Positions 15,228 to 43,945 of a stretch of DNA of 61,629 nucleotides are shown here, piece by piece. Position 1 is the first letter of the stretch; every line of letters starts with the position of its first letter. The stretch lies in NCBI GenBank assembly GCA_009841255.1, contig VXMD01000031.1:104268-165896 (forward strand). Direction: 5' to 3'. This DNA comes from Candidatus Poribacteria bacterium (GTDB lineage: Bacteria > Poribacteria > WGA-4E > WGA-3G). Below the pieces are notes generated by a model. The model was not told the origin of the DNA, searched no databases, and saw nothing but the letters and a program-made list of their open reading frames with translations. A program made the translations under genes and the position numbers.

Positions 15228-15276
15228 AAAAAAGCCTGTCTACATCTCCACGCTAAAGCATGAAGTTTTGACAGGC
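15228..15276 (-). terminator. Rho-independent terminator of dxs, with a conserved 29-nt loop
   Basis: On the minus strand GCCTGTC (15276-15270) pairs with GACAGGC (15240-15234) across a 29-nt loop, followed by six T residues, 35 bases after the dxs stop. The loop contains GCTTTAGCGTGGAGATG and matches the loop of the plus-strand hairpin at 42424-42466 at 26 of 29 positions, although the stems differ. Confidence 0.75.
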
Positions 15277-41280: not shown

Positions 41281-42333
41281 TTATGAACTCCGATTGGCAA
41301 CCATCCCCCGAATTTGAGTTATGTAAACGTCGTCGCTCAGATCTGTATGAATAACCTGTCGAAGCGCGCTTTGATATCTCGTCTTGGCATCCCCCCACGC
41401 CTTGAGGAGCGTCCTGCTTTCGGAGGTTTCCGGATGCGCAACAGCACGTAAAATTTGATGAATAACTGCGAGGTAAAAGAGGAGATGATGGCTATCAACA
41501 CGTGCCGCGATCTCCACAGATGAACAGGTTTCACGATGCGAAGTAACCCACGCCGCATAAGTGGCGACCAACTCCCGATCCAACAACGAGACGAAGTTCG
41601 CTCCCTCTTGGTTCGCCCCAATACTATTGAAGAATTGTATCAACCGCCGTTCCTGCCAATCCCAACCCACACTCGAAAAGTCAATTAAAAAAGGGGTTTC
41701 ATCCGAAATCACGATATTGCGACTCTGGTAGTCGAGACTATCGAAAGTCGGTGGTGCCGTTCGGAGTCGGTTGGAAAGCGCAGCCCATGCCGTGTCAAGA
41801 TGGACCGTTTCTGATGAACGCATGGAACCACAAAGGTAGTCCAAGGTTCTTCTGCCCTGCTCAAGTAAACCTCGCAGGGTAATGTCCAAATCATAACGGA
41901 AGGCGTACGGCGTAAGAAGTTCCCTGTTTTCTGCGAAAATAGTTTCAACCCGACAGAGTTCCATAACTGCGGTCCGCAAAATCGGTTTGAGCGTAGCCGC
42001 GGGACTGCTTTGTGCCATGGCGTCGAGCGTCGATTCGCCACACCACTCCAACAACAGCGCATGAAAGTCTTCCGATCTCCAAATAATTTTCGGGACACGA
42101 CACCCGTTCCGATGTAATATCGACAGGACAGTGGATTCAATTTGACAAGGGGTATAGCCTGAATTAACAACCGGTGTGGTGATGTCGTGTTGTTTGAGCA
42201 GGTAACTCACGGAACCGAACTTTAAACGACAGACGTTGTGTTTTTGCTGACTGCCGTGCTGAATCGGTTCAGGTTTCAGAGCATCCACTTCCGTTTTAAA
42301 GTGACCCGCGAGCTGTTCAATAAGATGTTCCAC
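41281..42333 (-). CDS. Aminoglycoside-phosphotransferase-like kinase (APH family)
   Basis: 350 residues with the kinase-like APH fold. LDYQSRNIVISDE matches the catalytic-loop pattern with Asp and Asn, and TPFLIDFSSVGWDWQERRL is the DFG-like metal-binding segment. The N-lobe region contains SYLLKQHDI. Members phosphorylate small molecules such as choline, homoserine or antibiotics; nothing here fixes the substrate. The start is GTG at 42333 with GGAGG seven bases before it. Confidence 0.82.
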   Translation of the reverse strand: MEHLIEQLAGHFKTEVDALKPEPIQHGSQQKHNVCRLKFGSVSYLLKQHDITTPVVNSGYTPCQIESTVLSILHRNGCRVPKIIWRSEDFHALLLEWCGESTLDAMAQSSPAATLKPILRTAVMELCRVETIFAENRELLTPYAFRYDLDITLRGLLEQGRRTLDYLCGSMRSSETVHLDTAWAALSNRLRTAPPTFDSLDYQSRNIVISDETPFLIDFSSVGWDWQERRLIQFFNSIGANQEGANFVSLLDRELVATYAAWVTSHRETCSSVEIAARVDSHHLLFYLAVIHQILRAVAHPETSESRTLLKAWGDAKTRYQSALRQVIHTDLSDDVYITQIRGMVANRSS

Positions 42334-42388
42334 TGCTATCCCTCCTACTGTTTTATATCACACCGCCCCTTCCAAATCTACAATTTTC

Positions 42389-42417
42389 TTGACATCAGCT
42401 AAGACGCGTGTTATCAT
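42389..42417 (+). promoter_or_regulatory. Near-consensus promoter upstream of the hairpin terminator
   Basis: TTGACA (42389-42394), 17 bases, TATCAT (42412-42417). Transcription would begin at about 42424, the first base of the hairpin at 42424-42466, giving a roughly 50-nt transcript if the terminator works. Confidence 0.6.
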
Positions 42418-42423
42418 ATTTCT

Positions 42424-42472
42424 CAGCGTCAAAACTCCATACTTTAGCGTGGAGATGCAGACGCTGTTTTTT
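42424..42472 (+). terminator. Hairpin terminator with conserved 29-nt loop
   Basis: CAGCGTC (42424-42430), 29-nt loop, GACGCTG (42460-42466), six T. The loop holds CTCCATACTTTAGCGTGGAG, itself a small hairpin with a TTTA-like loop, and matches the dxs terminator loop (15241-15269, other strand) at 26 of 29 bases with a different paired stem. Confidence 0.7.
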
Positions 42473-42473
42473 C

Positions 42474-42502
42474 TTGAAATGCATTGCTAAATCTACTATA
42501 AT
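42474..42502 (+). promoter_or_regulatory. Putative promoter at the structured RNA
   Basis: TTGAAA (42474-42479), 17 bases, TATAAT (42497-42502). It would start transcription near 42509, inside the first predicted stem of the structured RNA, so it may be chance or may mean that the RNA begins there. Confidence 0.45.
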
Positions 42503-42817
42503 ACTTTCAGAGTGTAAGGTTGCTATAGAGGGTTGTTACGCACCTCTAAGGTTAGATGCCTATAGTGTAAAGCTCTAATATCTAAAATCCTGAAAGTCGT
42601 AGCTTACAGTCGTTAGTAGGGAAAGACGGGTCATGCCGAATCCCATTTGAAACATACGACTCACAACTTTTCGTAAGGTGCTTTTTCGCACGCAGTCAGG
42701 ATAGTGTCTGTTGCAGTAGGCTACAGAAGTCTTGCATATTGCAAGCAGTGGTCGTTGATCGCACGAAAGCGTCTGTAAAGATAGGTTTTTACAGACGCCT
42801 CACTCTAAAGAGTGAGG
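42480..42817 (+). ncRNA. HEARO/omega-RNA-like structured RNA, without an adjacent iscB
   Basis: The block GTGTAAGGTTGCTATAGAGG (42512-42531) followed by CGCACC, GATGCC and GTGTAAAGC resembles, from memory, the conserved core of HEARO RNAs, the omega guide RNAs of IscB nucleases. Pairing supports a folded RNA: TTTCAG/CTGAAA (42505-42510 and 42590-42595) closes the core, TAGAGG/CCTCTA lies inside (42526-42531, 42543-42548), and GTCGTA/TACGAC (42596-42601, 42655-42660) stacks next. CTTTTCGT with ACGAAAG closes a third domain. CTTGCA/TGCAAG, an 11-bp stem (42769-42779, 42788-42798) and CCTCACTC-TAAA-GAGTGAGG (42798-42817) end it. The last hairpin resembles IS200/IS605-type ends. No iscB or tnpB frame follows. 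No guide could be assigned with certainty. Confidence 0.68.
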
Positions 42818-42831
42818 TCTATCACAAATAC

Positions 42832-42860
42832 TTGAAATCCAATCGTTTCTGTGGTAAAAT
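42832..42860 (+). promoter_or_regulatory. Promoter of rpsB-tsf operon
   Basis: TTGAAA (42832-42837), 17 bases, TAAAAT (42855-42860). It lies just after the structured RNA and about 175 bases before rpsB. Confidence 0.6.
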
Positions 42861-42866
42861 ATTTGC

Positions 42867-43039
42867 ATCAATTCTGATGAAGAATGTTCATCGGGAGTTA
42901 CACAATCAATACTGGATACGACACACCTCTCGATTTGCACAGCGGGTTCTCTCGGTTGAGAGTCTGATGCAGATATGAAAGAGGTGGACGCGAAAACCCA
43001 GTGGGGGCGACCTGGCCCCCGCAAACCTAGGAGGTTTTT
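42867..43039 (+). promoter_or_regulatory. Structured rpsB leader
   Basis: Within the leader CACCTCT (about 42925) pairs with AGAGGTG (about 42980), enclosing CTCTCGGTTGAGAG, and GGGGGCGACCTGGCCCCC (about 43003-43020) forms a strong hairpin. It is followed by AGGAGG at 43029-43034. Leaders of rpsB are often bound by S2 for autoregulation; that role here is inferred. Confidence 0.5.
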
Positions 43040-43945
43040 TTGGCAGTTACAATGAAAGAACTCCTTGAATGTGGAGTTCACTTCGGACATCAAACCCGTC
43101 GTTGGAATCCGAAGATGGCAGAGTACATCTTCGCCGAACGAAACGGGATTTATATTATCGATTTGCAAAAGACGCTACGAATGCTCGAAACCGCCGCTCA
43201 TTTCGTTGAGGAGATCGCCGCAAAGGGCGGTGGCATATTATTTGTCGGCACGAAACGGCAATCCCAAGAAGCCGTGCGAAGTGAGGCGGTTCGAAGTGGT
43301 ATGTACCACGTCAATCATCGGTGGCTCGGGGGTATGCTGACGAATTTTCAAACCATCCGTCGGAGTGTCAACCGGTTGGATAAACTCGATGCAGATGAAA
43401 CCAATGGACTTTTCGATCAGATGCCGAAAAAAGAGGTAATGCGTCTGCGACGTGAGAAAGGCAAACTCGACAGCAATCTCAGTGGTGTCAGAGAGATGAA
43501 AAGGCTCCCTGAAGTCGTCGTTGTTACCGACACGCGGAAAGAACATACGGCTATCGCAGAGGCAAACAAACTCGGCATTCCCATCATCGCTATCGTTGAT
43601 ACCAACTGCGATCCCGATCCGATTGATTTGCCGGTTCCGGGGAACGATGACGCTATCCGTTCGATTCGTCTTATTTGCTCCGTCTTAGCCGATGCAGTCA
43701 TCAGTGGCAGAGGAGACGCGTTAGAAGGCGCAGAGGTCGCAACGGAAACAGAACAGTCCGAAGCGCCTGTGGCGCAAGTGGATGCTATACTTGAAGTGGA
43801 AAGGCATGAGGAAGAAAGTGTCGCGATTCTCGAAGAAGCGCAACTGTCGGCAGAGCCGGAGGCGATCGGCGATGGCGAACAGCGTCAGGCACGGGCGCCG
43901 CGTCAACGACGCAGAGGAAGACCACCGCGGCGACCGTCTCAATAA
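43040..43945 (+). CDS. rpsB: 30S ribosomal protein S2
   Basis: 301 residues, start TTG at 43040 with AGGAGG five bases upstream. The S2 core spans about residues 1-225: [83 protein letters not shown] and [20 protein letters not shown]. An unusual C-terminal extension of about 75 residues is first acidic (Glu-rich) and then very basic ([20 protein letters not shown]). It begins the classic rpsB-tsf-frr-cdsA-dxr-rseP cluster. Confidence 0.97.

Follow-up and report, generated by a model that had tools for sequence, protein, structure and literature searches.

What is the structured block that lies upstream of rpsB in this Candidatus Poribacteria genome, and with which nuclease does it belong? 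In the stretch of 61,629 nucleotides analysed here (the window), the block was originally predicted to be a stand-alone HEARO RNA, possibly guiding IscB, at positions 42480-42817 between an APH gene and rpsB. We find instead that it forms the body of a complete, gene-less IS200/IS605-type element of 411 bp. Our preferred reading, to which we give about three chances in four, is that this non-autonomous element encodes a stand-alone TnpB-type omega-RNA with a trans function, which we infer, and with the right flank as its 3' guide. TnpB is the ancestor of Cas12, and its guide RNA is normally made from its own mRNA, so that guide and nuclease normally spread together. If a multi-copy family can consist of gene-less elements with nothing but an enlarged guide RNA, then a guide is able to live and spread alone.

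The boundaries of the element (Table 1) are set by two comparisons. In the closed genome G057, near-identical copies at different loci are alike from the left hairpin to the right terminus and share nothing outside, and in at least eight sister species the region upstream of rpsB is uninterrupted, with an empty site that reads ..GTTAT|AAATACTTGAAATTC.. or ..GTTAT|AAATACTTGAAAT.., without the insert. According to the empty sites, insertion took place after TTAT, which is kept once and without target duplication; for every readable left end, in orphans as in TnpB copies, the preceding sequence is TTATC, and the sequence of the right flank is different at every insertion site among the copies whose flanks were compared. 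Subterminal imperfect palindromes at both ends (42424-42466 and 42798-42817), a fixed 5' target motif and the lack of a target duplication are features of PATE-type elements. Inside the element, the left-end hairpin is followed by a conserved sigma-70 promoter, a structured RNA of about 320 nt and the right-end hairpin.

Table 1. Features of the gene-less element and its surroundings (positions in the window)
Feature	Position	Strand	Basis or remark
TTAT target motif (putative TAM for the cognate TnpB)	42411..42414	+	Empty sites of sister species; TTATC 5' of left ends
Non-autonomous IS200/IS605-type element, 411 bp, without ORF	42415..42825	+	Empty sites and copies at different loci
Left-end hairpin CAGCGTC-AAAACTCCATAC-TTTA-GCGTGGAGATGCA-GACGCTG	42424..42466	+	Same left end in TnpB elements
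Sigma-70-type promoter TTGAAA-17-TATAAT	42474..42502	+	Kept among copies; common to TnpB elements
5' RNA domain: outer stem 42503-42510/42590-42597, inner stems, pseudoknot GGTTAGAT/ATCTAA	42503..42597	+	Folding, covariation
Middle RNA domain: stem AGTCGT/ACGACT with GGGA/TCCC hairpin, then TTCGTAAGG and covarying hairpin TGC..GCA	42598..42689	+	
Core homologous to TnpB omega-RNA/reRNA scaffold, CGCAGTCAGGATAGTGTCTGTTGCAGTAGG..GTCGTTGATCGCACGAA	42690..42768	+	Reciprocal covariance models
3' hairpin GCGTCTGTAAA..TTTACAGACGC	42769..42798	+	Counterpart in TnpB elements: GCTTCTGC..GCAGAAGC
Right-end hairpin (42798-42817) and terminus, CCTCACTC-TAAA-GAGTGAGG-TCTATCAC	42798..42825	+	Same terminus after tnpB in L037, L210-L229
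Right flank, predicted 3' guide AAATACTTGAAATCCAATCG	42826..42845	+	Inference from TnpB biology (PMC8612924) and empty sites
rpsB (ribosomal protein S2), downstream gene outside the element	43040..43945	+	PF00318, E 5.6e-98

Much of what had been read from the letters at this locus was borne out. The string GTGTAAGGTTGCTATAGAGG lies at 42512-42531 and occurs once in the window, the 11-bp hairpin corresponds to 42769-42779/42788-42798, the hairpin with the TAAA loop is indeed a right end as in IS200/IS605 elements, and the promoters at 42389 and 42474 were both found, each with 11 of 12 consensus bases. The block itself is real, but the element that contains it is larger and includes a left-end hairpin that had not been listed; of the two neighbours, rpsB stands, whereas the supposed APH gene has no Pfam match and only sub-threshold NCBIfam matches. 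At window 42389-42417, the insertion interrupts the -10 box of what is probably an rpsB promoter; the empty sites read TTGACA-N17-TATAAA, and the first bases of the element recreate TATCAT.

Folding of the single sequence was only moderately better than that of shuffled sequences (z = -2.2, with 3 of 100 shuffles as good), and it is the covariation among relatives that is decisive for the reality of the block. In an alignment of 38 copies, standard pairs occupy 98.0% of the pairing cells of the 37 distinct homologues, compared with 80.4% after shuffling and at most 47% when the partners are slid by 1-3 columns, and both sides have changed in a compensatory manner in 24 of 38 pairs. The nested order that had been seen for the stems holds only in part, as the 5' domain also has a pseudoknot, for which 12 distinct cognate loop pairs fit better than permuted ones (permutation p 0.004, with relatedness ignored). 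The 5' and middle domains add about 190 nt that are not present in TnpB scaffolds. The 5' leader of TnpB genes was considered as the origin of the 5' domain and rejected, because the leader model (R3) had no match in the 5' domain of window-like copies; R3 matched only one other orphan (L140) and TnpB genes, although the first bases after the promoter nonetheless look alike. In tnpB genes of several clades, a conserved and covarying structured 5' leader of about 90 nt, TATCAAGTTGGCAGACAT..GTGTCTGCCTACCC..CTTGATA, stands directly before the start codon (L211:609-700 and equivalents).

As judged by covariance models in both search directions, the core is a homologue of the 3' omega-RNA/reRNA scaffold of TnpB. 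The weaker matches of R1, the model of the orphan-RNA core, are to tnpB genes, at their 3' ends (44-60 bits). The reciprocal model R2, built from 11 tnpB genes only, has its best match in the 61.6 kb of the window at 42690-42779 (E 2.9e-6; E-values of both models are rough), and it also finds nearly all other copies, at up to 108 bits and with the right end aligned. In tnpB, the scaffold AAGGTTGGGACATCAACCTTTGGAG..GACTCGC..GTTGATACCACAATC overlaps the final codons and the stop; its orphan counterpart, CGCAGTCAGGATAGTGTCTGTTGCAG..GTCTTGC..GTTGATCGCACGAA, has stops in the tnpB frame and the same stems, which are kept through compensatory changes although the reading frame is broken. In the geometry of scaffold, right end and flank, the orphan is identical to TnpB elements. 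Compared with full TnpB elements, it has lost the tnpB ORF but retained both ends and the promoter, and its RNA has preserved the TnpB scaffold, yet diversified it, under strong constraint on structure. Because no tnpB that could overlap the scaffold in cis is present at the locus or beside the other copies, we class the RNA as a stand-alone variant.

The further copies for which the original prediction had left room do exist. Among 59 genomes of the family, 14 gave homologues in a nucleotide search, with up to eight per genome; the match in one of these (G041) spans only 32 nt, and 13 carry window-like copies. R1 found copies in 40 of the 59 genomes, including at least 61 copies at 89 bits or more in 19 Poribacteria genomes among the matches listed. 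None of the copies read contains an ORF, no tnpB was found at 62 copy-bearing loci except for one unrelated fragment more than 2 kb away, and no iscB/isrB-type ORFs were found near copies. An exact scan for the core pattern across 84,980 species returned Candidatus Poribacteria only (19/19). The element family is mobile. In the window's own genome there are six matches to Y1 transposase, and cognate ends were looked for next to them and not found. Hairpins resembling the left end, with inverted flanks that vary, are present at six further sites of this genome (L003, at window 15228-15272; L002; L004-L007); three of these sit precisely at the end of a contig, a sign that multi-copy elements may have been left unassembled.

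Other orphan scaffold types without tnpB also occur (L131, L121 in G003, L132-L134 and L139): the type in G003 is short and has the TnpB-like core only (the model has 17 matches there, tnpB genes included), and that of G056, G057 and G022 is longer, with a different hairpin insert. At another locus (L117; 1420-1720 on the reverse strand of G049:C44), a pair of complete scaffolds of the TnpB type stands in tandem, each ending in GTATGTCAA and followed by different sequence. They lie downstream of a gene for a ClpP-like SDH protease (PF01972) and a 70-aa ORF, with no adjoining tnpB and no PADLOC match, and may represent a two-guide array, possibly domesticated.

Full-length relatives of the element exist. 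The TnpB of one clade (L037; 405 aa, PF01385 and PF07282) is encoded in elements that have the orphan's left end, 3' hairpin and TCTATCAC terminus, a promoter at the same position and the same TTAT target. In G057, the left ends of a TnpB element (L211) and an orphan (L050) show no difference in their first 63 bases and stay similar on through the promoter. This clade is present in 25 of the 59 genomes and in 13 of the 13 that carry window-like copies (hypergeometric 1.3e-6, or 2e-4 within the genus, with kinship ignored). R1 had no match above threshold in the scaffolds of this clade, and the orphan core is more like the scaffold of a sister clade than that of the L037 clade, which shares the orphan's ends. 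The window's own genome has 38 TnpB-domain matches. Two of these are intact TnpBs from the sister clade (L128 and L130); the L037 clade is represented by L219, which lacks about 31 aa in frame and whose right end is interrupted, and by L220, which is cut off by the end of contig C40. The right-end hairpin of the L219 element (G000:C3) is interrupted by an insert of about 140 bp.

An orphan HEARO RNA of IscB or IsrB with a 5' guide would suit a genus rich in IsrB, a genome with two IsrB of its own, and the motif UUCGUAAGG-hairpin-CGCA, which we take to resemble the nexus of IscB RNAs. It is nevertheless very improbable. The Rfam HEARO model (RF02033) had no match at E<=10 at 41900-43300 and none in the window at gathering score, and its best score genome-wide was 21.7 bits, at another place, against a cut-off of 83, although the same library detected HEARO in related genomes at 134-148 bits beside iscB and, weakly, at 38.5 bits beside isrB. 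At the IscB/IsrB loci of related genomes, R1 had no matches and R2 reached at most 15 bits with no significant E, so IsrB RNA was rejected as the identity. The gene downstream is rpsB rather than iscB or isrB, and the right end is of the TnpB-element type. The promoter puts the predicted RNA start at the first stem, about 85 nt inside the element, where a 5' guide would have no space, as the original prediction had itself remarked; in TnpB systems the guide is on the 3' side, past the right end. What survives of that prediction is a stand-alone, omega-RNA-like scaffold in an IS200/IS605-type element without a nuclease gene, but not its assignment to the HEARO/IscB family. A group I intron or IStron was also rejected, with no Rfam match at E<=10 and an internal promoter unfit for an intron starting at the left end. 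Still more remote is a cis-regulatory leader of rpsB: the block lies on the same strand, 215 nt upstream of this gene, but it is absent there in sister species, whose rpsB leader is otherwise conserved, and copies stand at unrelated loci, so that this candidate was discarded. Apart from this locus, the Poribacteria genus is rich in IsrB-like proteins (about 350 aa, RuvC without HNH), with up to 18 matches per genome among the matches listed, and the RNAs upstream of the many IsrB-like genes (L081 and L082 among them) are below the Rfam HEARO cut-off or without score.

TnpA needs the left and right ends only, and the element might accordingly be a passive PATE or MITE in which the scaffold is a fossil of a deleted tnpB, with no RNA function. 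Gene-less IS605 copies that retain the last bases of tnpB and the right end are known, such as the PATE-like copy of Halanaerobium hydrogeniformans with its last 58 nt of tnpB (PMC7290912). We consider this unlikely here, given the near-complete pairing and the compensatory changes over 37 distinct copies, the promoter that is retained before the RNA even in divergent copies, and the extra covarying domains not present in tnpB, since fossils do not gain structured domains. A decoy or regulator, in which the RNA would occupy TnpB and curb cleavage or TnpB levels without any use of a guide, appears about equally unlikely. It would fit a scaffold retained yet furnished with large extra domains, and TnpB can be inhibited by part of a TnpB mRNA (PMC10278001), but a decoy would not need a right end kept exactly, with flank after the scaffold as in TnpB reRNAs. 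Because the right end is also required for transposition, this argument discriminates only partly.

We therefore return to the reading of a TnpB-type guide RNA that acts in trans. TnpB is known to associate with the RNA from its right end, with about 16 nt of the adjoining DNA acting as guide (PMC8612924). It also processes the transcript that encodes it (PMC10278001), and its cleavage of empty sites beside the target motif favours retention or drive (PMC11870625). In the orphan, the 42474 promoter would transcribe the RNA through the right end into the flank (a terminator search found none in between), TnpB from another element would bind the scaffold, and the first 16-20 nt or so of the flank would serve as the guide. 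TnpA, also acting in trans, would excise the element and leave the empty site TTAT-AAATACTTGAAATCCAATCG, the allele of the sister species; guided TnpB would cut this site, and repair from a sister copy would restore the element. With TnpA and TnpB both supplied in trans, the element would thus parasitise both. Because the orphan RNA descends from a TnpB guide RNA and has its own promoter but no gene, this element of a sponge-associated Poribacteria lineage probably defends its genomic position with TnpB that is produced elsewhere.

More broadly, these elements may constitute a split TnpB system, in which dispersed, promoter-driven mobile guide-RNA elements with accessory RNA domains of their own all depend in trans on one TnpB gene or on a small number of them; we regard the odds of this as even. 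If true, the guide RNA would be a genetic parasite separate from the nuclease, and the system would parallel, in nature, the transition from omega-RNA encoded in cis to CRISPR guides encoded in trans. The separation of guide and nuclease en route to CRISPR-Cas12, and the defence of many unlinked elements by one nuclease, would become testable. Compact and naturally enlarged scaffolds could also be starting points for RNA engineering.

Stand-alone IscB RNAs that act in trans are known. HEARO/IscB omega-RNA, stand-alone copies included (PMC9755519), is likewise a structured guide RNA in an element of the IS200/IS605 superfamily, but the orphan does not match its profile, the nuclease family is different, and the guide is 5' there and predicted to be 3' here. 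The closest likeness in scaffold core, 3' right-end hairpin, predicted guide position and left-boundary target motif is to the TnpB omega-RNA/reRNA of IS200/IS605 elements of the ISDra2 type (PMC8612924), from which the orphan differs in having no tnpB ORF, a promoter of its own directly before the RNA and the extra domains, and in that it would have to act in trans. PATE or ends-only IS605 copies, such as that of H. hydrogeniformans (PMC7290912), are also gene-less and have IS605 ends, whereas the orphan belongs to a multi-copy family with a conserved promoter and a covarying, enlarged RNA. The RAGATH-18-derived RNAs (PMC11061315) were likewise recognised first as structured RNAs and only later given a role as TnpB guides, but they belong to IS607 elements, adjoin tnpB and have no similarity to the orphan by Rfam search. 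In the open-access literature searched, we found no earlier report of multi-copy, promoter-driven and enlarged TnpB omega-RNAs without tnpB.
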